Assembly (NCBI GenBank): GCA_016124585.1
Contig: WGNL01000013.1
Location: 186,001 to 250,000 of the forward strand
From: Bacteroidota bacterium
GTDB lineage: Bacteria > Bacteroidota > Bacteroidia > Chitinophagales > Saprospiraceae
Length of the DNA stretch: 64,000 bases
Direction of reading: 5' to 3'
Positions within the stretch are counted from its first letter, which is position 1. The number at the start of each line of letters is the position of its first letter. The translations under genes were made by a program, and so were the position numbers. The notes beneath the pieces are model-generated. The model had not been told where the DNA came from. It made no database searches and was given only the letters and a program-made list of their open reading frames with translations. Positions 42,827 to 58,629 of this stretch are shown one piece after another.

Positions 42827-43255
42827 TTAAATCAGGAACTGAGCCGTGGCCTCATCGTAGTCAATACTACCGGTGGCGGGTTTCTTCCCAGCTTCCTCGT
42901 GATTGAACTTATCAATCTGATTTCGCCGTGCACCCCATGATTTTCCTTCTTGGAAAAAGGCTATCACCGCCCAGACCAACAGCAGCATCGGCAAAAGTAC
43001 ACTCCAACGAAGTCCTTGCACCTCGTTCGCCATGTGCATAAAATTGTACACGATGAAATAGGCTTTGTAAAGACTGAAGCCAACCATCAGCGCCATATAG
43101 AAGTAATGCATTACACCTGTGAAGTGAATACTATGTACGATATGCCCTTTGGCAAGCAAGGCAATAAAAACCTCAATCAATGTAATGGCTCCCAATAACT
43201 TCAAGCCATACATCACCAGTTTTTTCTGTTCTTCGTACGATTGATGACCTGCCAT
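42827..43255 (-). CDS. Cytochrome c oxidase subunit IV (prokaryotic type)
   Basis: The 142-residue protein has three membrane helices (LKLLGAITLIEVFIALL, HYFYMALMVGFSLYKAYFIVYNFMHM, VLLPMLLLVWAVIAFF). The GMHMxxExxGLRW-type junction (here NFMHMANEVQGLRW) is the signature of the COX4_pro family. It is the small accessory subunit of the oxidase encoded upstream and is followed by a terminator. Confidence 0.88.
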   Translation of the reverse strand: MAGHQSYEEQKKLVMYGLKLLGAITLIEVFIALLAKGHIVHSIHFTGVMHYFYMALMVGFSLYKAYFIVYNFMHMANEVQGLRWSVLLPMLLLVWAVIAFFQEGKSWGARRNQIDKFNHEEAGKKPATGSIDYDEATAQFLI

Positions 43256-43305: not shown

Positions 43306-44292
43306 TTAAAGAAGGTAGAACACCAAGAACACAAATACCCAAACCAAATCCACAAAGTGCCAGTAAAGACCAATTTTTTCCACCATCTCGTAGTGGTTGT
43401 GGCGCTTGCCATAGATTCCACTTGCTGCATTTATCATGACTATCGTCAAAAAGGCAACGCCAGAAAATACGTGGAAACCGTGGAAACCAGTGATGAAAAA
43501 GAAAAGCGCACCAAAGGCTACAGGGCCAAATGCCTCCCTTAGGATTTCACCTGTAGAAGATTTGTATGCCCCATGTTCGTATTGATGGGTATTGTGATTG
43601 ATGGTGATTAAATATGGCGATTCTGCCTCGAATTTTTCACCAGCAAACTTTTTACCATCGTGGCCGACTTTTTCGAAGTAGCGGTTCTCCTCTATGTCTG
43701 CCTTACCTTTTGGAAGATAATAAACTGATTCTGCACCATGCACATTTTGTTCAACCTTGGAGAAGCCTGCTGCCTCCAATTCCTGGCCAGATAAGTACTG
43801 TCCACCATCTGTATGCATGGAAAATGGGTCTGTATGAATGGTTACACCTTCCTCCTTGATAAGCGTTGTCCATTCCCACGCTTGGCAGCTAAGGAATGTT
43901 GCACCACCAATGATTGTCAAAAACATCCAAAGCACGACCCCACGTTTATTTTCACGGTGTCCTTCTTGAACGGCACGAACCATAGTGACCGAACTCGCAA
44001 TCAGGACGAAGGTCATGAAGGTTACGAAAACCAGTGGAGCCTTGCCGCCAAAAAGGTTATGAATACCAAAAGGTGCTTTTTCAAAAACAAAATCAGGAAC
44101 TGGCCAAGTGTTACTGCTGAAGCGCAGAGCGCCATAAGCTATAAGAAATCCTGAAAATGTAAATGCATCTGAAAGCAGGAAATACCACATCATCAGCTTG
44201 CCATAGCTCGCCTTAAAAGGTTCTCTCCCACCCGACCAAAGTTGCTCGTCCGTTTCGTGGCCGTGCTCTAAAACTGCTGCATCTGAAGCCAT
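43306..44292 (-). CDS. coxC: Cytochrome c oxidase subunit III with a large insertion
   Basis: The 328-residue membrane protein has subunit III helices, including YGKLMMWYFLLSDAFTFSGFLIAYGAL and GFHGFHVFSGVAFL with the final WHFVDLVWVFVFLVFYLL. Between helices, roughly residues 146-254, it carries a soluble insertion of about 110 residues (from EEGVTIHTDP to STGEILREAF) that is not part of the canonical fold. The function of the insertion is unknown; it might contact ACIII or subunit II. A second, short subunit III gene lies just upstream. Confidence 0.9.
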   Translation of the reverse strand: MASDAAVLEHGHETDEQLWSGGREPFKASYGKLMMWYFLLSDAFTFSGFLIAYGALRFSSNTWPVPDFVFEKAPFGIHNLFGGKAPLVFVTFMTFVLIASSVTMVRAVQEGHRENKRGVVLWMFLTIIGGATFLSCQAWEWTTLIKEEGVTIHTDPFSMHTDGGQYLSGQELEAAGFSKVEQNVHGAESVYYLPKGKADIEENRYFEKVGHDGKKFAGEKFEAESPYLITINHNTHQYEHGAYKSSTGEILREAFGPVAFGALFFFITGFHGFHVFSGVAFLTIVMINAASGIYGKRHNHYEMVEKIGLYWHFVDLVWVFVFLVFYLL

Positions 44293-44386: not shown

Positions 44387-44965
44387 TTAGCGATAAAATG
44401 ATAAAAATATAAACAAATAGACCCAAAGGAAATCTACAAAATGCCAATAGGTCAAAGTTAATTCGAATCTTAATTTGCGCTTTGTTGTGACTTTGAAGTC
44501 GAGGCCATAAGCATGAATCAAAGCAACTGTCAAAGCTGCAAGCCCTCCAACCACGTGTGCCGCATGAAACCATGAAATCACATAGATGAAATCTCCAGAG
44601 GGATTGAGGGTGAATGGAATTCCATTGTCAGACAACGCCACCCAACCTTGATATTGAAAAACAAAAAACAGGATTGCCAGCAAGTAAGTAATCACCAACA
44701 AGGCTTTGTACTGTTTTTCCTTTCCATTTTTGAAAGCAATAAATGAAGCATGAAGCGTTCCACTGCTTAACAAAATCACCAAAGTGCTCAATTTGAAAAT
44801 ACTGGGTAACTGAAACTCCAACCAGTTACCTGCTGCTTGCCTCACCACGTATGCACTTGTTAGTGAAGCAAACATCATCAAAATAGAACCACACCCAACC
44901 CAAACGGCGAATTTCCAAGGGTGGATTTTGTTTCTACCTGTATTTTCTTGAATTGTCAAATCCAT
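44387..44965 (-). CDS. Second cytochrome c oxidase subunit III-like protein
   Basis: The 192-residue protein has five helices and matches the short CyoC/CoxC-like form: KFAVWVGCGSILMMFASLTSAYVVRQA, SGTLHASFIAFKNGK, SWFHAAHVVGGLAALTVALIHAYG and a C-terminal LTYWHFVDFLWVYLFIFLSFYR. It starts 2 bases before the ctaB stop region, so they are probably coupled. With the longer coxC it suggests either a two-part subunit III or an assembly variant; such gene pairs occur in other Bacteroidota. Confidence 0.88.
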   Translation of the reverse strand: MDLTIQENTGRNKIHPWKFAVWVGCGSILMMFASLTSAYVVRQAAGNWLEFQLPSIFKLSTLVILLSSGTLHASFIAFKNGKEKQYKALLVITYLLAILFFVFQYQGWVALSDNGIPFTLNPSGDFIYVISWFHAAHVVGGLAALTVALIHAYGLDFKVTTKRKLRFELTLTYWHFVDFLWVYLFIFLSFYR

Positions 44966-45900: not shown

Positions 45901-47751
45901 TCAATGGTCTTCCGTTTCTCCATCCCGCATCGGTTCTACCTGCGGCACGAATTCTTCACCATTTTTACCATAGTCATAAGCCCAACGATGCACAGCAGGA
46001 AGCTTACCTGGCCAGTTACCGTGGCCAACATTAATTGGTGTAGTCCACTCCAAGGTTGTAGCTCCCCAAGGGTTTTTGCTAGTGACTTTTTTACCTTTCC
46101 AAATGCTGTAGAAGAAATTCACAAACATCAACACCTGAAAGCCAAAGGTCACAATGGCTGCGATGGTGATGAATTTGTTCATTGAAGCAAAATGGGAAAA
46201 TGTGTCAAAGTTATCGAAACGATAGTAACGACGTGGAACACCAGCCATGCCTAAGTAGTGCATCGGCCAGAAGATAGAATAAGCACCTATCAAGGTTCCC
46301 CAGAAGTGCATTTTGCCCATCGTCTCATTCATGAATCGGCCAAACATTTTCGGGAACCAGTGGTAAACACCAGCGAACATCCCAAAGAACGCTGCGACAC
46401 CCATCACAATGTGGAAGTGAGCAACCACAAAATAAGTGTCGTGCATTTGGATGTCAATCACGGAGTTACCCAAGAAGATACCTGTCAAACCACCGGAAAT
46501 GAACATCGAAACAAAACCAATTGCGAACATAGATGCCGCATTGTATCGGACATTCGATTTATAAATGGTCGTTATCCAGTTGAACACTTTCACCGCAGAA
46601 GGAACCGCTATGATAAGTGTGAAGATTACGAAGAAATTGGCGATGAAAGGGTTCACACCGGACATGAACATGTGGTGCGCCCATACGATGAACGAAAGGA
46701 AACCAATTGCCAAAATTGAATAAACCATCGCCTTGTAACCAAAGATTGGTTTGCGGCAATGCACTGATAGAACCTCTGAAGTCAAGCCCATCGCAGGCAA
46801 AATGATAATATAAACCTCTGGGTGACCCAAGAACCAGAATAAGTGCTGGTAAAGAATGGGGCTACCACCAACATGGTCAAGTGCCTGCCCGCCAATGAAA
46901 ATTTCACTGAGGTAAAAGCTAGTGCCCATGCTCCGGTCAAACATCAACAAAAGGAAGCCAGAAACCAACACTGGGAAAGACAAAAGTGCCAAAATCGCAG
47001 TGACGAAGAATGCCCAAATCGTGAGCGGCATCCGCCACATGGTCATGCCTTTGGTACGAAGGTTCAACACAGTGGTAACGTAGTTAACTCCTCCCAATGC
47101 CACTGAAATTACGAAGAAAACTAAGCTCAAAATCCAAAGTGTCATACCTGTTCCAGAACCATCAGAAGCTTGAGGCAATGCACTCAACGGCGGGTAGGCT
47201 ACCCAGCCACCCGCAAATGGGCCAGTGCTGAGAAACAAGGAATAGAACATGACAATGCTGGCCAAGAAGAAAAACCAATAGGAAAGCATATTGAGCAACG
47301 GCGAAGCCATGTCACGGGCGCCCAACTGCAACGGAATCAAGAGGTTACTGAAAGTACCGCTCAAACCTGCCGTCAATACAAAGAATACGATGATGGTCCC
47401 GTGCATTGTAACCAAAGCGTAATAAAACTCAGGTGCCAATGTACCAACTCCAGCCTCATTAACTTCAATCCATTTGCCAAGCAATGGGCGGAGCCAAGAA
47501 AGACTTTCTTCTGGAAAACCCAATTGCAAGCGGAAAATCAAGGACATGCCAGCACCAATCAAAGCCCAAATCATCCCAGTAATGAGGAACTGACGAGCAA
47601 TGATTTTATGGTCCATGCTGAAGATGTACTTCATAATGAAGTTCGACTTGTATTTGTCGCCATGTTCATGCTCATGAAAATGGTCGTCAAATCCCAGTTC
47701 CTCTATCAACATGTCATCCCGATCTTGAACTGCTGTATGTGCGTTAGCCAT
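45901..47751 (-). CDS. coxA: Cytochrome c oxidase subunit I
   Basis: CoxA is the catalytic heme-copper subunit. The 616-residue protein has heme a ligand H117 (TMHGTI), the CuB site H310 with cross-linked Tyr314 (GHPEVY), H359/H360 (WAHHMF), and H445 and H447 (VVAHFHIVMG) for hemes a3 and a. The HPEVY tyrosine points to an A-type oxidase. The N-terminus has a His/Asp/Glu-rich cytoplasmic tail (DDHFHEHEHGDKY). The gene follows coxB by 34 bases. Confidence 0.97.
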   Translation of the reverse strand: MANAHTAVQDRDDMLIEELGFDDHFHEHEHGDKYKSNFIMKYIFSMDHKIIARQFLITGMIWALIGAGMSLIFRLQLGFPEESLSWLRPLLGKWIEVNEAGVGTLAPEFYYALVTMHGTIIVFFVLTAGLSGTFSNLLIPLQLGARDMASPLLNMLSYWFFFLASIVMFYSLFLSTGPFAGGWVAYPPLSALPQASDGSGTGMTLWILSLVFFVISVALGGVNYVTTVLNLRTKGMTMWRMPLTIWAFFVTAILALLSFPVLVSGFLLLMFDRSMGTSFYLSEIFIGGQALDHVGGSPILYQHLFWFLGHPEVYIIILPAMGLTSEVLSVHCRKPIFGYKAMVYSILAIGFLSFIVWAHHMFMSGVNPFIANFFVIFTLIIAVPSAVKVFNWITTIYKSNVRYNAASMFAIGFVSMFISGGLTGIFLGNSVIDIQMHDTYFVVAHFHIVMGVAAFFGMFAGVYHWFPKMFGRFMNETMGKMHFWGTLIGAYSIFWPMHYLGMAGVPRRYYRFDNFDTFSHFASMNKFITIAAIVTFGFQVLMFVNFFYSIWKGKKVTSKNPWGATTLEWTTPINVGHGNWPGKLPAVHRWAYDYGKNGEEFVPQVEPMRDGETEDH

Positions 47752-47785: not shown

Positions 47786-49288
47786 TTATTGGGTTAAAAT
47801 CTGGAATTCAGTTCGGCGGTTTTTAGCCTTCCCTTCTTCTGTCTCGTTCGAATCAACTGGTTTAGTTTCACCATAGCCCCTAGAACGCAAGCGGTTTGAA
47901 GCCACTTGATTTGTAACAAGGTAATCGTAAACTGCCTTCGCCCTTTCTTGAGACAAAGTCATATTAGCAGCATCGTCACCATCGCTATCTGTATGACCTG
48001 CAACTTCGATGGTCATATTCGGATATTTGTTAAGTACTGCTATCAAATTATCCAATTCATATTTAGAGCGGTCGTCCAATTCAGCCAATCCAGTTTTAAA
48101 ATAAACATAGTTGAGCCTGATGATTTTATCTTCAGGTTTTTCTGCTGAAAGTGCCTTCTCAACAGTCGAATTAAAATCTTGTTTACGTTGCTGAACTTCA
48201 ATGCCCAAGACTTCATCTTTACGTGGGTCAAAATCCTTACCTCTTACATTGGTTAGATAAAAGGACTGTTGCTCTTTCAACCATTTCTGGTATTCTTCCT
48301 CAGAAACAATTTTGACTAAACGACGCATTGAGAAGTGACCTTTTCCACAAAGCTCTGCACAGGCTAGTTCATATTCAAATGTTTTCCAAAGCGGGGCACT
48401 CTTGGGGTCGTTAGGGTCACTAGGTTGTTGGTACTCTGGATATTTGCTCAATTCTTGGCGATACTCCTCCGTTGTTTTTGAAGGAGTAAATACGAAATAG
48501 GTAGGCATGCCAGGTACAGCATCCATTTTCACCCGGAAATGGGGTAAATCAAAACTGTGCAAAACATCCATCGCTGTAATCCGTACCCTTACCTGCTTGC
48601 CAACTGGCAAAACTATTTCTGAAGGCATGATGTCATCCAAGTTCTTGTCATCAGTCCAATCCTGCCCCAAAGGGTTTTCGCCAGATTTTATCAACTTAAA
48701 ATTACGAGTTCCAAGTTTGCCATCTGGCCCTGGGTAACGCAAGTGCCATAAGAACTGTTGGCCGGTAGCTTCAATTTCCATGTAATCTTCACCTTCGGAA
48801 ACATCAGCCATCACCTCGTTCCAAGCAACAAGTCCACGAATTACCAAAAAGCACATTACCACAGCTGGAATTGCGGTCCAAATTACTTCCAACTTATTAT
48901 CATGCGGCATGAACTCGGCAATAACACCTTTCTTTCCTGCATATTTGTATGCAAACCAGAACAAAGCAATATGAGTTAGGACAAATACAATACCGGTGAA
49001 GAACAGCGTAATATTGAAAGCGCCGTCAATAGATGAGCCGTGAGCTGAGGCAGCTTGGTGAGGGCCATAGCCGAGCATCCAGTTTTTGTAGTGCCAAGCT
49101 GACCAACAAGTAAGCACTAAAAATGCCACCATGAAAATCAACATGAAATTGGCTGTTCTCTTATTGGTTTCCAATTGAACAGCTTCTTCACCTCTGATTT
49201 TGGCTGCCAAATCGGTGACCTTGCCAATTTGTATGATTACAATGACAATGAGAATTAAACAAGCTATGATAATTAATCCAGTACTCAT
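47786..49288 (-). CDS. coxB: Cytochrome c oxidase subunit II fused to an OmpA-like peptidoglycan-binding domain
   Basis: The 500-residue protein begins with an extra hydrophobic helix (residues 4-20), followed by two further helices near 48-65 and 94-112 and another near 136-152. The CuA domain then binds two coppers: H244, C310, E312, C314, H318 and M321 in CAELCGKGHFSM. After a linker (about 330-388), residues 389-500 form an OmpA C-like domain: YVYFKTGLAEL, IEVAGHTDSDGDDA, LSQERAKAVYDYL, RGYGETKP and NRRTEF. D434 and R449 have the 15-residue spacing of diaminopimelate-binding pairs in OmpA. The domain would face the periplasm, so it could anchor the oxidase to peptidoglycan. It lacks a cytochrome c domain. 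Confidence 0.95.
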   Translation of the reverse strand: MSTGLIIIACLILIVIVIIQIGKVTDLAAKIRGEEAVQLETNKRTANFMLIFMVAFLVLTCWSAWHYKNWMLGYGPHQAASAHGSSIDGAFNITLFFTGIVFVLTHIALFWFAYKYAGKKGVIAEFMPHDNKLEVIWTAIPAVVMCFLVIRGLVAWNEVMADVSEGEDYMEIEATGQQFLWHLRYPGPDGKLGTRNFKLIKSGENPLGQDWTDDKNLDDIMPSEIVLPVGKQVRVRITAMDVLHSFDLPHFRVKMDAVPGMPTYFVFTPSKTTEEYRQELSKYPEYQQPSDPNDPKSAPLWKTFEYELACAELCGKGHFSMRRLVKIVSEEEYQKWLKEQQSFYLTNVRGKDFDPRKDEVLGIEVQQRKQDFNSTVEKALSAEKPEDKIIRLNYVYFKTGLAELDDRSKYELDNLIAVLNKYPNMTIEVAGHTDSDGDDAANMTLSQERAKAVYDYLVTNQVASNRLRSRGYGETKPVDSNETEEGKAKNRRTEFQILTQ

Positions 49289-49368: not shown

Positions 49369-50676
49369 CTATTCGTAGGACTGCACTTCGTGATGCAGAC
49401 TCTCCTCCATGTATGGGTCATTTAAAGGCATCAAAGGCGCTTTTGTCAATTGATTAAAGACCCAATAGATAAAAAATGCAGTAAATCCAAGGAATACACC
49501 AATCTCCAACAAACCGGGGATTGTGAACCCAGGTACGAAAGAAGCAGCGTGTTCAACTGCATGACCTGCAGCTTCATGTGCACCTTCTTTACCATGCTCC
49601 AATGCTTCTTTGGCTGTGATGAAAACACCAGGTTTAATCATGTAGAAATAATCGAACCAGTGACCAAAAAATACAAGTGCTGCTGAAAAAAACAAAGTTC
49701 CATAACGGCGCTTAGTGGTGTTGCGCATCAAAATCAAAAATGGCAATACGAAGTTGATAACAAGGTTACCAAAGAAAAGAACCGGATATTCGCTCTTGCG
49801 AGTAAAATAATAAATGGTCTCCTCTCCGTTGTTAGTGTACCAAATCAACATATATTGTGAGAACCAGCAGTATGTCCAGAATATACTGAAAGCGAACATG
49901 AATTTACCCAAATCGTGAAGGTGTTCTTTGGTTATTGCTTCAAGATAACCTTTCGATTTCAAGTAAATAATCAGCATAATTGTCAATGAACAACCAGCCA
50001 ACCACCAGCTGGCCATTGAATACCAAGCAAACAAGGTACTGTACCAGTGTGCATCGACTGACATTACCCACTGCCACACTATGGCTGGGCCTGTAAAGGC
50101 GGCAATAGGCAGGAAGATAGCGGCATATTTTCTTAGGTTTCTGTGGTAAGCGAAATCTGCGACTTCCGCACCGTGCTTATCCTCTTCTATTGAAATCTGG
50201 CGGAACTTTCTTCCAAAGAAAATCCAGCTACCTACAATGATGATGGATCCAAAGAGATACCAGTTTTTATTCAAAAATGAAGATTTACCAGTAAGCACTT
50301 TGTCCGAAGCCACAGCATCAGAATCTGCCCAATGGTATAAGTGGTTCATGTGAGCATATACGGCTATTCCGATAATAACCATCATGATAAGGCCAGGCAA
50401 CATAAAGGAAGAAAATGCCTCCCAAATACGCTTAAACACAACATACCAACCAGCATATGCAAGGGTAAATGCCGCTATCACAAAAGTAATCATGAAAGCG
50501 ATTCCTGTGAAAAAGACAACATTGAGCAAGAAGTTGGACCAAAAACGGGCGTGTGTTCCACCTTCTGCAATTTGAGCAGGCTCAAGGATGAAACTGAGAA
50601 TTAAGCAAAGAATGCCTAACCCCATCATTCCAATTAAAAAGTTCTTTTGTTTTGCTTCGAAAGTAAACTGCTTCAT
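49369..50676 (-). CDS. actF: Alternative complex III quinone-site subunit ActF
   Basis: The 435-residue polytopic protein has about ten helices and corresponds to ActF, the NrfD-related membrane subunit of ACIII. It contains VQWVMSVDAHWYSTLFAWYSMASWWLAG-like text (here VWQWVMSVDAHWYSTLFA) and FSIFWTYCWFSQYMLIWYTN, family hallmarks. It lies between actE and coxB, the usual order where ACIII and oxidase genes are joined. Its C-terminal part has a soluble Ala/Glu/His-rich loop (EALEHGKEGAHEAAGHAVEHAA). Confidence 0.92.
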   Translation of the reverse strand: MKQFTFEAKQKNFLIGMMGLGILCLILSFILEPAQIAEGGTHARFWSNFLLNVVFFTGIAFMITFVIAAFTLAYAGWYVVFKRIWEAFSSFMLPGLIMMVIIGIAVYAHMNHLYHWADSDAVASDKVLTGKSSFLNKNWYLFGSIIIVGSWIFFGRKFRQISIEEDKHGAEVADFAYHRNLRKYAAIFLPIAAFTGPAIVWQWVMSVDAHWYSTLFAWYSMASWWLAGCSLTIMLIIYLKSKGYLEAITKEHLHDLGKFMFAFSIFWTYCWFSQYMLIWYTNNGEETIYYFTRKSEYPVLFFGNLVINFVLPFLILMRNTTKRRYGTLFFSAALVFFGHWFDYFYMIKPGVFITAKEALEHGKEGAHEAAGHAVEHAASFVPGFTIPGLLEIGVFLGFTAFFIYWVFNQLTKAPLMPLNDPYMEESLHHEVQSYE

Positions 50677-50739: not shown

Positions 50740-51639
50740 CTAATGATGTTCAGTTTGGGAAGGCTCAGGCTCGCTCCCATGTTGTTCATCCATTTGTTCC
50801 TCCGTCTCTGTTGGTGTTGTCTCCACTGTTGGAACCGCCTTTGGGATGTTTGCCATTGGAATTCCAAATTCTGCATTGAGGCTGTTTGCATTCTCAGAAT
50901 AATTCGCTTTTTTAGCAACAGCTTGTAAGGAACGGATGTAGTGAATTACTTCCCACCGCTCTTCAAAACCTAATTTATCTGCATAACTGCCCATCGCATT
51001 TTTACCATACATAATTGCATGGAAAAAACGGCCATTAGATGATGCCACAAACTGACTATCTAGCAAATTAGCAGGTTGGGCAGGGTATTTTCCACCATCG
51101 TCTCTGACCAAATAACCACCACCGTCACCTTTGCCTCCGTGGCAAATTCCACAATAGATTGTATACAGTTCCTTGCCTCTTGCCAAACCATCTGTTGTGA
51201 TTGGAAAGGGATTGTACTTTATTTGTTGAATGGCCAAATTGCGGCCTTCCTCAGTATCAGGATAGGTGTAGGGCACATGTCCGTTCGGGGTGTATTCAAT
51301 TCCACCATTGTGATTCATCCTGCTCATCGTGCTTTGAACTGCGTCAAGAGCAGAAGCGTAAACACCATTGTAGGAGGCTGAACCAGCATAACCACGAGGA
51401 ATGGTTCCATGCACAGGTTGATGTGGCATAGATAATTCACGACGTGACTTCACACTTTCTTCATCCCAAGAGTTCAAATTGTACTTGGTCAAAATATTGG
51501 CTTCGTATGCAGTAGCATGTGCCATGTCAGGAATGAACTCACTTCCCGTGGAGTCTTTACCAGCTTGTTGACAAGAAGTTGTGCCAAAAATGACAGCCAT
51601 TATTGCCAATGCGATTAGAAAATTTGGATTGAATTTCAT
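50740..51639 (-). CDS. actE: Alternative complex III monoheme cytochrome c lipoprotein ActE
   Basis: From ATG 51639 the 299-residue protein has a lipoprotein signal (MKFNPNFLIALAIMAVIFGTTSC). One heme c site CGICH is followed by a probable axial Met in AIMYGKNAMGSY. In ACIII this subunit passes electrons towards the oxidase. The C-terminus is a long acidic, Thr/Glu-rich tail (TETEEQMDEQHGSEPEPSQTEHH). The frame is open to 51711, but those residues precede the lipobox and are rejected. Confidence 0.93.
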   Translation of the reverse strand: MKFNPNFLIALAIMAVIFGTTSCQQAGKDSTGSEFIPDMAHATAYEANILTKYNLNSWDEESVKSRRELSMPHQPVHGTIPRGYAGSASYNGVYASALDAVQSTMSRMNHNGGIEYTPNGHVPYTYPDTEEGRNLAIQQIKYNPFPITTDGLARGKELYTIYCGICHGGKGDGGGYLVRDDGGKYPAQPANLLDSQFVASSNGRFFHAIMYGKNAMGSYADKLGFEERWEVIHYIRSLQAVAKKANYSENANSLNAEFGIPMANIPKAVPTVETTPTETEEQMDEQHGSEPEPSQTEHH

Positions 51640-51733
51640 CTTCAAAAATGAATCTTGAATATGCTTAGGCTCAATAACCTGCCGATGAACAGCATGCGGT
51701 AATTTCACCAAAATCAGTTTTACGATTTAGTTT

Positions 51734-52282
51734 TCAAATAGTCTTTGTGTGCACTTCCTCGGCACCAGTTGATTGAAAAAACCCTTTAAGGTTGTCCACT
51801 GCACTGGCATCCATATCATTTGTCTGGAATGCCAGACAAAATTTGTCGTCTGTGATACGGTCATCCAATACTGGGTTATCAACACCAAAGCCTAACCCAC
51901 AAATGATGTAGAAAACGACAGTCATGCCGATAGCACAAAACAACACTGTCAACTCAAATGTGATAGGAATGAAGGCAGGAAGTGACCAGTATGGTTTACC
52001 ACCAAATATAGTTGGCCAATCACCATGAAACATCAAGCTGCCGCCAAATATCCAAGAGATACCAATCAATGCAGTTAGCGTGCCTAACATCCCAAAAATG
52101 AAGCCTACAATGTGCAATCTCGACTCCTCTAGCCCCATCACTGGGTCTAAACCGTGGATTGGAAATGGTGAATAAACATCCATTATATCGAGGTGCTGTT
52201 TGTTAGCCTTTTTAACGGCATTCATCAGTACCTCTTCGTCATTGTAGAGCCCGAACAGAACTTCTTTATGATGACCTTTCAT
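51734..52282 (-). CDS. actD: Alternative complex III subunit ActD (DUF3341)
   Basis: The 182-residue protein has two membrane helices (GFIFGMLGTLTALIGISWIFGG and LTVLFCAIGMTVVFYIICGLGF), with LYNDEEVLMNAVKKA at the start and a typical DYSPFPIHGLDP-like segment (VYSPFPIHGLDPVMGL). These are DUF3341 features. It lies between actC and actE in the conserved ACIII order. Confidence 0.93.
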   Translation of the reverse strand: MKGHHKEVLFGLYNDEEVLMNAVKKANKQHLDIMDVYSPFPIHGLDPVMGLEESRLHIVGFIFGMLGTLTALIGISWIFGGSLMFHGDWPTIFGGKPYWSLPAFIPITFELTVLFCAIGMTVVFYIICGLGFGVDNPVLDDRITDDKFCLAFQTNDMDASAVDNLKGFFQSTGAEEVHTKTI

Positions 52283-52323: not shown

Positions 52324-53754
52324 TTAGTGATGTCCGTCATGTTCAACATCCTCTGTCGCATCATGATGATGGTGATGGTGTTTTGCATTTTCACCCATGT
52401 ATTGGTCGCCATATTGCTTTAAGATTGCCTTAACCTCTGCTGTGGCAACTACAGGGGCAACCCGAGCAAATACCAAGTAAAGCGTAAAGAACAAGCCGAA
52501 AGTACCCACATAAATACCAATCTCAACCCAACTTGGCCAGTAATAACTCCAGCTTGATGGCAGATAATCACGGGCTAACGTAGTGGCAATAATTACAAAA
52601 CGCTCGAACCACATTCCAATATTCACGAAAATGGATATGAAAAAAGTCCACCAAATATTCCGACGAATATTCTTTGACCAGAAAACCTGTGGTGCGAGCA
52701 AGTTGCAACCCATCATGCCAATATAGGACCAATAGTAAGGACCTAGTACCCTGTTGTAGAAGGCGAATTGCTCATAGATATAACCTGAGTACCAAGCAAT
52801 GAAAAGCTCAATCAGGTAAGCTGAACCGACCATGGTTCCTGTTACCAATATCACCTTATTCATGCTTTCAATATGATTAGTAGTTATGTATCCTTCTAAA
52901 CCAAAACATTTCCGTGTGATGACCATCAAAGTCTGAACCATTGCGAAGCCAGAGAAAATCGCACCGGCAACGAAATATGGCGGAAAGATGGTTGTATGCC
53001 AACCTGGAATTACCGACGTGGCAAAGTCAAAACTTACAATCGTGTGCACTGAAAGCACCAAGGGCGTGGAAATACCTGCCAAAATCAAAGACAAATATTC
53101 ATGGCGTTGCCAGTGTTTGGCTTTGCCAGTCCAGCCCATTGAAAAGAATGCATATAGTTTCTTGCGAACACCTTTAGCTCGGTCACGAACGGTAGCAAGG
53201 TCAGGAACTAGACCTGTATACCAGAAGAGCAATGAAACTGTGAAATAGGTCGAGATGGCAAACAAGTCCCAAAGCAATGGTGAGTTGAAATTCACCCAAA
53301 GTGGCCCACGTGTATTGGGGTAAGGAAACATGAAGAAGTCAAACCAAGGGCGGCCAGTATGTGTAGCAGGGAACAAGCCTGCACACATTACCGCAAAGAT
53401 GGTCATCGCTTCTGCAGCACGGTTAACCCCAGTCCGCCAACGTTGACGGAATAGTAAAAGGATAGCCGAAATCAGTGTACCTGCGTGGCCAATACCGATC
53501 CACCAAACGAAGTTGGTAATGTCGTATGCCCAGCCTATGGTACGGTTGGCGTTCCAAGCACCAATCCCAAACCAAAAGGTCCAGCACAAGGAAAATATGC
53601 CATAACCCAAAGTCATCACCGACAAAGTGAATGCAATTATCCACATCCGGTTAGGTGCCTTTTCGGTAGGTCCGATCAGGTCTTCCGTGATTTGGTGATA
53701 ACTTTTGTTCCCCATTATCAGGGGTTCACGAATTCGTGATACTGCTGCGCTCAT
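52324..53754 (-). CDS. actC: Alternative complex III membrane subunit ActC (NrfD/PsrC-like)
   Basis: The 476-residue polytopic protein is the main quinol-binding membrane subunit of ACIII. It has HAGTLISAILLLFRQRWRTGVNRAAEAMTIFAV, FPATHTGRPW and LSLILAGISTPLVLSVHTIVSFDFA, all typical of NrfD-like ActC. The last 23 residues form a histidine-rich tail including six consecutive His (KHHHHHHDATEDVEHDGHH), possibly metal-binding. The gap to actB is 66 bases. Confidence 0.94.
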   Translation of the reverse strand: MSAAVSRIREPLIMGNKSYHQITEDLIGPTEKAPNRMWIIAFTLSVMTLGYGIFSLCWTFWFGIGAWNANRTIGWAYDITNFVWWIGIGHAGTLISAILLLFRQRWRTGVNRAAEAMTIFAVMCAGLFPATHTGRPWFDFFMFPYPNTRGPLWVNFNSPLLWDLFAISTYFTVSLLFWYTGLVPDLATVRDRAKGVRKKLYAFFSMGWTGKAKHWQRHEYLSLILAGISTPLVLSVHTIVSFDFATSVIPGWHTTIFPPYFVAGAIFSGFAMVQTLMVITRKCFGLEGYITTNHIESMNKVILVTGTMVGSAYLIELFIAWYSGYIYEQFAFYNRVLGPYYWSYIGMMGCNLLAPQVFWSKNIRRNIWWTFFISIFVNIGMWFERFVIIATTLARDYLPSSWSYYWPSWVEIGIYVGTFGLFFTLYLVFARVAPVVATAEVKAILKQYGDQYMGENAKHHHHHHDATEDVEHDGHH

Positions 53755-53820: not shown

Positions 53821-56800
53821 TCAGCTCAACAACGCCTCGTCTCTATTTGTCACACGAGTTGTGTACTGCACAGAAGGACGGGTATTCACCTCTTCCAAAA
53901 CGATATAGTTCAGTTCATTTTTATATCGCTTCGCAATCGCTGAGTTTTCATCGTTCGTGTCACCGAATACGATAGCACCCGTTGGGCAAGCGGTCATACA
54001 AGCCGACTTAACATCACCATCACGAAGGGCACGACCTTCTTTTTTGGCTGTCAGTTTGCCTTCTTGGATACGTTGTACACAGAAGCTACACTTCTCCATC
54101 ACACCCCTAACCCTAACCGTAACATCTGGGTTAAGTACCATCCGGGTGAGGTTATCGGCTCCAAAAGGAACTTCACCATCGTATGGAACAAATGGCTCTG
54201 GTCCGTGCTCGTTTACTGGGAACAGGTCTGCCGTAGTGTAATCCATCCAGTTGAAGCGGCGTACTTTGTAAGGACAGTTATTTGCGCAATAACGGGTTCC
54301 AATGCAACGGTTATAAGCCATTTGGTTCAAACCTTCAGAACTATGGTTGGTAGCAGATACTGGGCAAACGTTTTCACAAGGAGCATTGTCGCAGTGCTGG
54401 CACATCATCGGCTGGTAAACCACGTTCGGGTTTTCATAATCGCCGTAGAAATAGCGGTCAATACGTAGCCATGTCATTTCGTGGTGGCGATAGACCTCAT
54501 ATTTACCAACTACGGGAACGTTATTTTCAGCGATACAAGCAACTTGGCATGCGCCGCAACCCGTACAAGAGTTAAGGTCGATATGTAAGCCCCAATGATG
54601 TCCTTGGCTATATTTTTCTGCCACATATTCATTGTAAGGGTACAATGATTTTTGATTCAACTCTTCAAATTCAGCCCGTTTTTCCTCCAATTCTTTGGAG
54701 AAATTTCCAAGGTCGCTCAAATTAGTACGGTTGATCACAGAGCGATCTACCAATGAGCCTTGGAAGCCTTTCCCTACAGTCATCAGGGCAATCTCATCAA
54801 CATTTACCTTTCCTTCGTAGCCGTCTGCTTTGCCAGTAACTCCCATTGTGTGGTGGTACTGAACGCTGGCATAGTTATCAGTTCCGACTTTTTCAGAAAC
54901 AGTACCGACTGCGGCAAAATATTGAGTGTTGCCATTGGTATCAATGCTGCACCATGGGTAAACATTCACACCAATATTGCGGCCAGCCGCACCAGAAACT
55001 TTACGACCATAACCCAAGGCCATGCTCACAGTATCCGTTTTCTGGCCAAATTGGCGAACACAAGTAACAGTTTGTTCTTTGCCACCAACAGCAATTTTTA
55101 TCATGTCAGCCTCTTTGTAGGCTTCTTTGGCATTCAAACCTTTGAACTTACCTACGCCATCAAAACGGCGGTTGCCATCAAATTCAATCGGAATTTGGAG
55201 GTAATTCCCCCAAACACAACGAGTGATAGGATCTGGCATTTCCTGCAACCATGGGTTGTCAGCATATTGCCCACCGCCCACATTTACAGTTTCAAAAAAT
55301 GAAATTTCTAAATCTCCACCACCAGGTTTGGTAATTTTTCCAGCAGCTGACTGAACATCGCCATTCCAGCCATATTCAGATAAAGTTTCTGATGGAATTT
55401 CAAAAACACCATCGTGGAGAACACTATCCCAAAAACCTTCAAAAGTGGCAAAATTGCGTTGGCGATTGAACATCGTCGCCTGCCAGTTTGCATTCAAGTA
55501 TTCGTAATATGGTTGCTCCGCACTATGGTTAAAATTTTGACTACCAGACCAGCGAAGCAATGTTTCCTCTGCTTGACGAGTTTTAAAAATTGGTGCAATC
55601 GTTGGCTGCATCAAAGTATAGTGCCCTTCTTTGGCCTCAGCATCTCCCCAACTCTCTAACCAATGATGAGATGGCGCAACATAATCACAAAGTGCTGTCG
55701 TTTCGTCAGGTGTGCCGTTGAAGGATACCTTAGTTTTCACCTTCGAAAATGCCTGCACAAACGCATCGCTATTAGGCAGGTCAAAAGCTGGATTTGCACC
55801 CCAAACGATTACGGTTCCTACTGCGCCAGTTCCCATTTCACGAATCAAGCCTTGAATTTCTCCATCAATGCCTTGGCGTTGCATGGAAGCATTGGCAAAA
55901 GTCATGGTGTTGCCCCAGCTATCAAGCATGTTATTGAGAGCGTTCACTAAAGTTTGTTCACCCACGTTATTTGTGCCACAAACAACAAGTGATTTGCCTT
56001 TACTAGCCACCAATTGATCGGCAACTTTTGCCAATGCGATAGCTGCCTTATCATTTACTTTAGGTGCAGACACAGTAGCTGCGCCAGTTTTACTTGCAAC
56101 TGCATTATACAGATTGGCAATGGCTGCCCCCATTTCTGAAGGACGAACCAAAATCCGGTGGTCGGCATTTGAGCCAGTTAACGTCATGCCACTTTCTACT
56201 TGGATGTGGCGAGACATTTTTGCCTTGCTGACTTCATCAATCCTACGGTTTTGTGCGTATTGGCGAGCAAATTCAATTGGGCTAATCCAAGTGCCTAGAA
56301 AGTCGGCACCGAAGCTGACAATCAAGTCTGCTTTGTCAAAATGGTAATTTGGAATAGCTTTTTTGCCATACCCCTCTTCATTCGCTTGCAATTGTGCAGA
56401 TGAGGAAACAGCATCATAGGTTACAACTGATGAACCCGGGTATTTTGCCAAAAACTCGCCCAAAGCTTTCTTTGCAGTTGGGCTCAGAATGGTGTTAGTG
56501 ATTACTTTTATTGAACCAGCAGACAATTTTCCACCTACCTCGTTGTCCAGGTCTTCCCAGCTCATTTTTGCCATCTTGCCGCCACTGTTCTTCATAGCAG
56601 ACTGGAAGCGATTCGTATCATAAAGGCTGAGTACACTGGCTTGAACACGAGCATTAGTGCCACCTTGTGTAACAGAAGACATGGTGTTGCCCTCAACTTT
56701 AATTGGCCGACCTTCCCGTGTTTTAACCAGAACTGGGCAGTAATCCCCACCTTTGACATATGTCGAAGCGTAGTAAGTGGCTACACCTGGTACAATTTCA

Positions 56801-57048
56801 TCAGGCTTGACGACAAAAGGAAGTGCCTTTTTGACGGGAATATTGCAGCTTGCAATGGTAGCCGCACCCACGCTAAAACCAAGGTACTTTAAGAAATCAC
56901 GCCTTGAAGTACCGGATTCGAGCGCAGCTTCATGTGACAAAGCTGGAGCATCACTGAACTCACGATTGATAGATTCCAAGAAAATTGGATCCTGCTCCAA
57001 ATGTTCCACCCCAATCCAGACTTCCGTATTATTATTTTGATTTTTCAT
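53821..57048 (-). CDS. actB: Alternative complex III iron-sulfur subunit ActB
   Basis: The 1075-residue protein is the two-part ActB. The N-terminus carries a Tat-type signal (SRRDFLKYLGFSVGAATIASC) after about 47 residues. The first large domain resembles molybdopterin oxidoreductases; known ActB proteins do not bind the cofactor. The C-terminal part has four Cys clusters: CTGCGACQVACIAEN, CQHCDNAPCENVCPV, CIGTRYCANNCPY and CSFCVQRI with CMTACPTGA, for [4Fe-4S]/[3Fe-4S] centres. It follows actA by 92 bases. Confidence 0.95.
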   Translation of the reverse strand: MKNQNNNTEVWIGVEHLEQDPIFLESINREFSDAPALSHEAALESGTSRRDFLKYLGFSVGAATIASCNIPVKKALPFVVKPDEIVPGVATYYASTYVKGGDYCPVLVKTREGRPIKVEGNTMSSVTQGGTNARVQASVLSLYDTNRFQSAMKNSGGKMAKMSWEDLDNEVGGKLSAGSIKVITNTILSPTAKKALGEFLAKYPGSSVVTYDAVSSSAQLQANEEGYGKKAIPNYHFDKADLIVSFGADFLGTWISPIEFARQYAQNRRIDEVSKAKMSRHIQVESGMTLTGSNADHRILVRPSEMGAAIANLYNAVASKTGAATVSAPKVNDKAAIALAKVADQLVASKGKSLVVCGTNNVGEQTLVNALNNMLDSWGNTMTFANASMQRQGIDGEIQGLIREMGTGAVGTVIVWGANPAFDLPNSDAFVQAFSKVKTKVSFNGTPDETTALCDYVAPSHHWLESWGDAEAKEGHYTLMQPTIAPIFKTRQAEETLLRWSGSQNFNHSAEQPYYEYLNANWQATMFNRQRNFATFEGFWDSVLHDGVFEIPSETLSEYGWNGDVQSAAGKITKPGGGDLEISFFETVNVGGGQYADNPWLQEMPDPITRCVWGNYLQIPIEFDGNRRFDGVGKFKGLNAKEAYKEADMIKIAVGGKEQTVTCVRQFGQKTDTVSMALGYGRKVSGAAGRNIGVNVYPWCSIDTNGNTQYFAAVGTVSEKVGTDNYASVQYHHTMGVTGKADGYEGKVNVDEIALMTVGKGFQGSLVDRSVINRTNLSDLGNFSKELEEKRAEFEELNQKSLYPYNEYVAEKYSQGHHWGLHIDLNSCTGCGACQVACIAENNVPVVGKYEVYRHHEMTWLRIDRYFYGDYENPNVVYQPMMCQHCDNAPCENVCPVSATNHSSEGLNQMAYNRCIGTRYCANNCPYKVRRFNWMDYTTADLFPVNEHGPEPFVPYDGEVPFGADNLTRMVLNPDVTVRVRGVMEKCSFCVQRIQEGKLTAKKEGRALRDGDVKSACMTACPTGAIVFGDTNDENSAIAKRYKNELNYIVLEEVNTRPSVQYTTRVTNRDEALLS

Positions 57049-57140: not shown

Positions 57141-58568
57141 TCAATAATGGCATTTCTGGCATTCCGTTCCGCCAATATCTTCTACGGTTACTTTGCTACG
57201 TTCGTTGTTCTCCATCTGTTTATGGTACATTTCGTAGTAATTGTCGTAGTACTTGTTGTCTGCAAATTTGACCTCCGTTTGACGGTGGCAGTTGATACAC
57301 CAGCCCATAGAAAGTGGTGCATATTGCTTCACTTCATCCATTTCCTCCACTTTGCCATGGCAAGTTTGGCAAGCTACTTTACCAACGGAAACGTGCTGCT
57401 GGTGACTAAAAAATACATGGTCAGGCAAATTATGGATACGAATCCATTCAATCGGACCTTGGATTTTGGTATCACCTGATTTCTTGTCAGTCAGAGAAGC
57501 CACGATGCCATCCCATTGCGATGCAAGCAAAGCCTCACCTTCCGCATCCATCGTATTTTTCTCTTTGATGTAGTTTTCAGAAATCCAGCCTTTGTAAATG
57601 GCCTCGATTTCCTTATCCGTCTTCTTGTCGTAATCCTTGATGAGTGTATCACCTTTAGGGTCGAAGCCGATGGAAGCGTAGATTTTTGTCAACTCAGCCG
57701 TTCCATATGTCGAACCGACTTTGATGGCCTTGTGGCAGTTCATACAAGTATTTGCAGCAGGAATGACACTATGCTTGCTTCTCCGAGCCCCATCGTGGCA
57801 GTAATTGCAATCAATTTTGTTGACACCTGCGTGTGTTGCGTGGCTAAACTTGATAGGTTGTGTTGGTTGATAACCTTGTTGGCGACCAAGATTGATGGCA
57901 TTACGAACTGTAAAATATCCGCCAAACAAGATGACTGCAAAAATTGCGAAGCTAACGACACCTTTGCTCGTTAATATTTCTGCCAATGACTTGCGGGCAG
58001 GCGCATCTGCACCCAATTCCTTTACTGCCGAAATATGGTTCAGGTTGGAAATGATCCTTGATAGGATGACTGCCAACAATGCCAAAATGAGGAAAAGGAA
58101 AACGTAGAGTAGGTTATTGTTACCGGCAGCGTTCCCAGCACCTGCATTATTACCTCCATCAACTGGCGGAGGCGGAGGATTACCCGGGCAATTACCAGCA
58201 GCAGTACAATTGATATAAGCCAAAATATTGGCAATGTCCCCATCAGAAAGGCTGGGGAAGCTGGTCATTACAGTTGGTTTGAACTCATTCCAAATGGCAA
58301 CGGCCCTTGGGTGGCCGCTAGCTATCTCTGCTTGTGAATTGCGGATCCATTTGTACAATGCCTCATCGTCACCCCAACGCTCTTGAGCGCCACCAAGCGC
58401 AGGCCCAGTGAGCTTGTCTTTCATGTTTTTGTTGTGACAAGAAGCACAATTGTTCTTGAAAAGTGCCTTCCCTGCTTCAACGGCGGCTTGGTCTTGAGCG
58501 AACAAGGCGGACAGGGAAAAGGTGAAAAGCAGAACTAAAATACTGTAATTCAGTCGTTTGTATATCAT
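57141..58568 (-). CDS. actA: Alternative complex III multiheme cytochrome ActA with added N-terminal cytochrome c domain
   Basis: From ATG 58568 the 475-residue protein has a signal peptide (ILVLLFTFSLSALFAQ) and six CxxCH motifs: NCASCH (C41-H45) in an N-terminal class I cytochrome domain, then DCNYCH, TCMNCH, ACQTCH, WCINCH and ECQKCH in the pentaheme part. A Gly/Asn/Pro-rich linker and two membrane helices (LYVFLFLILALLAVILSRII and VVSFAIFAVILFGGYFTV) separate the two parts. The monoheme head may exchange electrons with soluble carriers or the oxidase. It is the first gene of the cluster. Confidence 0.94.
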   Translation of the reverse strand: MIYKRLNYSILVLLFTFSLSALFAQDQAAVEAGKALFKNNCASCHNKNMKDKLTGPALGGAQERWGDDEALYKWIRNSQAEIASGHPRAVAIWNEFKPTVMTSFPSLSDGDIANILAYINCTAAGNCPGNPPPPPVDGGNNAGAGNAAGNNNLLYVFLFLILALLAVILSRIISNLNHISAVKELGADAPARKSLAEILTSKGVVSFAIFAVILFGGYFTVRNAINLGRQQGYQPTQPIKFSHATHAGVNKIDCNYCHDGARRSKHSVIPAANTCMNCHKAIKVGSTYGTAELTKIYASIGFDPKGDTLIKDYDKKTDKEIEAIYKGWISENYIKEKNTMDAEGEALLASQWDGIVASLTDKKSGDTKIQGPIEWIRIHNLPDHVFFSHQQHVSVGKVACQTCHGKVEEMDEVKQYAPLSMGWCINCHRQTEVKFADNKYYDNYYEMYHKQMENNERSKVTVEDIGGTECQKCHY

Positions 58569-58629
58569 CTTCGCAAGGTTGTAAACTTCAAATCTTGACA
58601 AAAACATGACTTAAATTCCTAAGTCGGCG

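Follow-up and report, generated by a model that had tools for sequence, protein, structure and literature searches.

Subunit II of the aa3-type cytochrome c oxidase (CoxB) encoded in the stretch of DNA analysed here (64,000 nucleotides of contig WGNL01000013.1 from a member of the Saprospiraceae; the window) continues in one uninterrupted frame into a C-terminal OmpA-type domain. This fusion is conserved in most of the family, its OmpA part is under purifying selection and matches known OmpA-type folds, and in some relatives an OmpA-type domain is instead found on ActE, a subunit of ACIII encoded in the same gene cluster. We infer, with a probability of roughly 70%, that the fusion protein ties oxidase and ACIII, joined in a supercomplex, to peptidoglycan, with the anchor borne by either of the two complexes and with a possible effect on their mobility.

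The gene lies at 47786-49288, as given in an earlier note made from the sequence alone, and is read from the minus strand: the plus strand of this interval holds many stops, the minus strand a single open frame. Its features are as follows (coordinates in the window, strand, description):

47786-49288, minus strand: coxB-OmpA fusion gene, 500 aa, ATG at 49288, stop codon 47788-47786
49091-49288, minus strand: two hydrophobic stretches ahead of the usual COX2 hairpin, residues 1-66 (hydropathy)
48839-49060, minus strand: COX2_TM hairpin PF02790, residues 77-150 (Pfam, 35.6 bits, cut-off 22.8)
48485-48778, minus strand: COX2 periplasmic domain PF00116, residues 171-268, including H244 (Pfam, 46.1 bits, cut-off 22)
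48326-48361, minus strand: CuA loop, residues 310-321, with C310, E312, C314, H318 and M321 (sequence and alignment)
48104-48325, minus strand: linker, residues 322-395, two predicted helices, length nearly constant among relatives (model)
47816-48103, minus strand: OmpA-type domain PF00691, residues 396-491 (Pfam and model)
47942-47989, minus strand: codons 434-449, from D434 to R449 (D in 84/84 and R in 84/84 fused CoxB)

The CuA site, described as complete in the earlier note, is indeed so: the ligands H244, C310, C314, H318 and M321 are invariant in all 39 aligned CoxB proteins including that of the window, and E312 is invariant in alignment A2. The NCBIfam model for CoxB (TIGR02866) scores 119.1 on the window protein, which lies under its cut-off of 147.7; this cut-off is reached in 2 of 60 relative genomes, with 2 of the 60 lacking any match. 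The window CoxB is not of the caa3 type, as it has neither a Pfam match to a cytochrome c family nor a CxxCH motif. The PF00691 match covers profile positions 1-98 of 98 with 83 bits against a cut-off of 27.2, so that the domain search proposed as a check did return OmpA, albeit with bounds of 396-491 rather than the 389-500 first suggested. Hydropathy analysis reveals four hydrophobic stretches, two of them before the usual hairpin, and the loop charges follow the positive-inside pattern that places the C-terminus outside, in the periplasm, as had been argued from topology. The N-terminal part (49091-49288) is weakly like SecG (21.5 bits, below the cut-off). A scan for promoters and terminators in and around coxB gave 5 against 3.6 in shuffled sequences and 2 against 1.9, respectively, and hence no useful excess. 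The source genome contains 42 PF00691 matches and one COX2-domain match: OmpA domains are common in this organism, and coxB-OmpA is its only oxidase subunit of this kind.

Within the window, coxB stands between the ACIII set actA-actF (58607 down to 49369) and the remaining genes of the aa3-type oxidase, all on the minus strand:

57141-58607, minus strand: actA, multihaem cytochrome with an extra N-terminal cytochrome c domain at 43-133 (domains)
53821-57048, minus strand: actB, molybdopterin oxidoreductase and 4Fe-4S domains (domains)
52324-53754, minus strand: actC, NrfD family (domains)
51734-52282, minus strand: actD, PF11821 (Pfam)
50740-51711, minus strand: actE, lipoprotein-type cytochrome c of ACIII, lacking OmpA in the window (domains)
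49369-50676, minus strand: actF, named by position, no Pfam match (position)
45901-47751, minus strand: coxA, PF00115 (Pfam)
44387-44965, minus strand: cox3-type subunit, 192 aa (domains)
43306-44292, minus strand: second cox3-type subunit, 328 aa (domains)
42827-43255, minus strand: cox4-type subunit (domains)

The oxidase side also includes UbiA-type, SCO-like and DUF420 genes on the same strand. Amongst the ACIII proteins ActD alone matches a model named for ACIII, with the other names assigned from domains and order; the succession actA-F, then coxB, coxA and cox3 on one strand is the gene order expected of an ACIII-oxidase supercomplex. ActE proteins that lack OmpA often end in a tail rich in His, Asp and Glu (in the window at 50740-51711, and at loci L054, L056, L071, L176, L302 and L303), which, as a guess, might bind metal.

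Structure modelling, also suggested in the earlier note, supported the assignment of the C-terminal domain. The model of full-length CoxB was poor (mean pLDDT 57.2), although Foldseek still ranked subunit II first with it, and the model of residues 329-500 was fair (mean pLDDT 72.5, pTM 0.69). The matches to the latter are OmpA-type domains, led by 5wtp from Capnocytophaga and including OprF, the complexes 3td5 (with stem peptide, rank 12) and 3td4 (with diaminopimelate, rank 18) and the domains of MotS, MotB and TagL; TolB/Pal (2hqs) is likewise in the list. D434 and R449, already pointed out in the earlier note, correspond to the pair that binds diaminopimelate in OmpA, and their conservation together with the fold supports such binding in CoxB.

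Other assemblies contribute nine relatives, with the label Saprospiraceae or Bacteroidota, that have the same uninterrupted frame at 67-87% identity. In order to see how widely the C-terminal PF00691 occurs, as the earlier note had proposed, 157 genomes of the window's family were surveyed: 146 have a whole CoxB, 9 yielded none, and two (G396 and G305) were dropped because CoxB is cut by the contig end. The domain is present in 113 of the 146, absent in 30 and replaced by a degenerate tail in 3. Of these fused genomes 76 were read as sequence, and the others were judged by profile coverage to at least position 495 of 498. Proteins of other families (six) and of MAG contigs (two) brought the total read to 84 fused CoxB, in which D434, G437, S446 and R449 are invariant and N442 (83/84) and L445 (82/84) nearly so. 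Between the last residue of the CuA motif and the OmpA domain lies a linker of 62-95 residues (median 73, sd 3.7; 81 of the 84 proteins, those in which the motif pattern was found). Amongst six close relatives (15 pairs), pN of the OmpA part is 0.12-0.26 and pS 0.71-0.93: substitutions are thus mostly synonymous, which indicates purifying selection, with synonymous sites so near saturation that we claim no exact dN/dS. The CoxB core of the same six relatives shows a pN of 0.06-0.13, making the OmpA part about twofold looser.

Beyond the family, CoxB-OmpA occurs in at least seven genomes from four other families of the order (G054, G059, G073, G108, G089, G216 and G153). In a phylum sample of 395 genomes a CoxB match was obtained in 88; all six of these that belong to the window's family are fused, and in the other 82 (13 from the same order, 69 from outside it) the match did not reach the OmpA part. 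A class sample, searched bluntly at a strict threshold of 1e-112, returned fused CoxB in the same six family genomes only. Loss can be seen inside a single genus, in which G003 and G004 lack the domain and G000 has it. As for the three degenerate tails, they are partly covered by the fused profile, with the domain degenerate or gone (two were read). The tails of G346 (L122:1809-3263) and G251 (L221), from one genus, are about 145 residues long and display neither a Pfam OmpA match nor the GHTD/Arg motif; judging from the sequence, they look like decayed OmpA domains. In some other genera (L119, L138, L139 and L188) the unfused CoxB bears different tails, 120-160 residues long and helical, for which Pfam gives no match.

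A scan for OmpA frames near unfused CoxB identified an alternative carrier in the same cluster, ActE. Of the 30 family genomes with an unfused CoxB, 10 have the fusion ActE-OmpA, against 0 of the 113 with CoxB-OmpA; no genome amongst the family genomes examined has both anchors, and 20 of the 146 with a whole CoxB have neither. ActE itself was found in 153 of the 157 family genomes (77/80 and 76/77). The count of exclusivity is based on 46 loci in which both genes were read (six from other families) and on 36 ActE frames, a set that overlaps with the first and includes a few frames from unfused genomes, the remaining genomes having been judged by profile coverage and frame length. Pfam recognised both cytochrome c and OmpA in all seven ActE-OmpA proteins submitted; in the family a lipobox-like start is present in 10/10 and the Asp/Arg pair in 10/10. 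The same pair is found in all six ActE fusions from outside the family (G037, G057, G047, G064, G101 and G088, from other families of the order, among 80 genomes), of which five were confirmed by Pfam, the sixth having a masked stretch. CoxB lacks the domain in the four of these six genomes in which it was read (in G064 and G088 CoxB lies off the stretch), and ActE lacks OmpA in all six read of the at least seven other-family genomes with CoxB-OmpA. A search of the phylum sample for ActE at 1e-42, with about four candidates scored per genome, returned family members only and no ActE-OmpA from outside the order, which makes for a weak negative. In the ActE-OmpA of G037 (L276:5786-7255) a His-rich linker of about 180 residues joins the haem domain to OmpA.

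A split of the OmpA domain into a downstream gene of its own was not seen in unfused relatives: of the 20 genomes lacking both anchors, 15 were read over 11-19.5 kb around CoxB, and no other OmpA frame lies there. Ten proteins from unfused clusters, eight of them CoxB from genomes with neither anchor, a degenerate tail or an ActE anchor, and one of them ActE, were scanned with Pfam for other wall-binding domains and none was found; actA was often cut off in these clusters.

By count, the mutual exclusion of the two anchors is strong: the chance of zero overlap across 146 genomes is 1e-7, a value that treats genomes as independent and so overstates the case. Once relatedness is taken into account, the supported branches offer no more than three independent pairs, with which exclusivity does not reach significance (p 1). 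In a tree of the CoxB core (133 rows) the fused state is seen on the deep family branches, and losses are scattered, down to the level of a single genus; on 108 family rows we count 12 state changes for CoxB-OmpA and 5 for ActE-OmpA. We read this as a gain at the base of the family followed by losses, a direction that parsimony counts do not separate. A tree of the OmpA domains (154 rows, 105 columns), which is weak, unites 76 of the 78 CoxB domains of the family, plus two others, in one group and sets the ActE domains and those from other families apart, hinting that the OmpA domain may have been recruited repeatedly. AU tests on 100 rows rejected neither one origin nor several (p 0.16-0.69; ActE domains together p 0.479, all CoxB domains together p 0.247, all anchors together p 0.161).

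In the mechanism we propose, CoxB would act as the working CuA subunit of the aa3-type oxidase, extended by a helical linker and the OmpA-type domain, and this domain would most likely use D434 and R449 to bind diaminopimelate in the stem peptide of peptidoglycan. CuA would face its donor as usual, with the linker bridging the distance to the wall, and CoxB bound in this manner would also tie the ACIII encoded next to it to the wall. In some relatives the C-terminal anchor would be borne instead by ActE, the ACIII subunit presumed to lie opposite CuA: if oxidase and ACIII form one supercomplex, a single anchor would suffice to hold both, whichever half it sits on, and the occurrence of OmpA on ActE in genomes without it on CoxB makes the anchoring of such a supercomplex more likely. 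Since 20 of the 146 genomes have neither anchor and three have degenerate tails, the anchor is dispensable in some lineages and its role is not essential everywhere. Holding the complex might serve to keep it at one site, to distribute it evenly or to connect the membrane with the wall. Limits on the diffusion of the oxidase, as envisaged in the earlier note, could follow from anchoring, and so could a fixed spacing to the outer membrane, for which the fairly constant linker is the one support.

A different role for the domain would be that of a periplasmic docking module for a protein, either an outer-membrane partner or a donor cytochrome, rather than mainly a peptidoglycan anchor. OmpA-type domains can contact proteins too, TolB/Pal appears amongst the Foldseek matches and the surface residues outside the motif vary; it is, however, the ligand site that is kept, from D434 to R449, and a carrier that switches between two subunits is easier to reconcile with a shared external ligand, for instance the wall, than with one partner and a single docking geometry. 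We consider docking improbable. We rate as equally improbable that the domain has no respiratory role and is a tolerated accretion, one of numerous OmpA-type domains that happened to become joined to a C-terminus permissive of tails. The 42 PF00691 matches of the genome, the 12 state changes with loss even within a genus, the genomes with neither anchor and the other tails of other lineages would all agree with this, but purifying selection, an invariant ligand pair and a nearly constant linker are at odds with it, as are the presence of the domain in 113 of 146 genomes and the second carrier in the same gene cluster. An error of sequencing or assembly that joined two genes is practically eliminated, given the same frame in nine other assemblies, the 84 CoxB-OmpA frames read and, for the remaining genomes of the 113, the profile coverage. 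The fusion has therefore passed the three points on which the earlier note had staked it, with no frameshift, an OmpA domain returned by the search and the D/R pair kept in relatives.

The common picture of respiratory complexes is one of diffusion within the membrane. If the proposed anchoring to the wall is true, respiration would be a positionally fixed process in these cells, and a conserved wall-binding domain on the oxidase, in a family where its partner complex can bear the domain instead, would argue on genetic grounds that ACIII and oxidase work as a unit. Natural pairs of relatives, one having the anchor and the other lacking it, would lend themselves to asking what fixing a respiratory complex does for the cell. 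For the order as a whole, we lean slightly towards a respiratory end built as a wall-anchored supercomplex, with an exchangeable anchor on CoxB or ActE, one of which is enough and which was possibly recruited several times.

Several known systems invite comparison. Caa3-type CoxB, with 2yev among the structural matches, likewise has an extra domain at the periplasmic C-terminus of subunit II, although there the added domain is a redox-active cytochrome c and here it is of the OmpA type without a haem motif. The ACIII-(c)aa3 supercomplexes of Rhodothermus marinus and Flavobacterium johnsoniae share the type of gene order seen in the window, and the extra cytochrome c domain of the window's ActA has a counterpart in F. 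johnsoniae ActA (PMC5928083, accessible part). That part also places ActE beside subunit II in the supercomplex of R. marinus and cites an ACIII-aa3 supercomplex from F. johnsoniae (PMC5928083). It mentions no wall anchor for either (PMC5928083), and fused CoxB was found in 0/69 phylum-sample genomes from outside the order. According to the accessible part of a further study, F. johnsoniae can do without ActE for electron transfer to aa3 (PMC8552683). The full-text literature, in a coverage that most subscription journals lie outside, yielded no report of a CoxB-OmpA fusion or of such an anchor.

The MotB/MotS stators and TagL/TssL of type VI secretion are also inner-membrane machines with a periplasmic OmpA-type wall anchor. 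Their anchors resist mechanical load, whereas we know of no such need for an oxidase, and hence the reason for anchoring must differ. A further parallel is PsaB of Gloeobacter violaceus photosystem I (7F4V, chain aB), residues 772-866 of 872 of which match the OmpA domain of the window: this too is a core subunit of an energy-converting membrane complex, but a photosynthetic and cyanobacterial one, with the domain on one subunit. The PsaB extension is reported to bind peptidoglycan, and a second carrier for this anchor is not known to us. The structure 7F4V is that of Gloeobacter PSI (PMC9000952, seen in part), and the words peptidoglycan, C-terminal and extension are absent from the main text of that paper. 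The principle of such anchoring is known from MotB/MotS, TagL and Gloeobacter PsaB; the carrier, CoxB, and the exchange of the anchor between carriers appear to be new.
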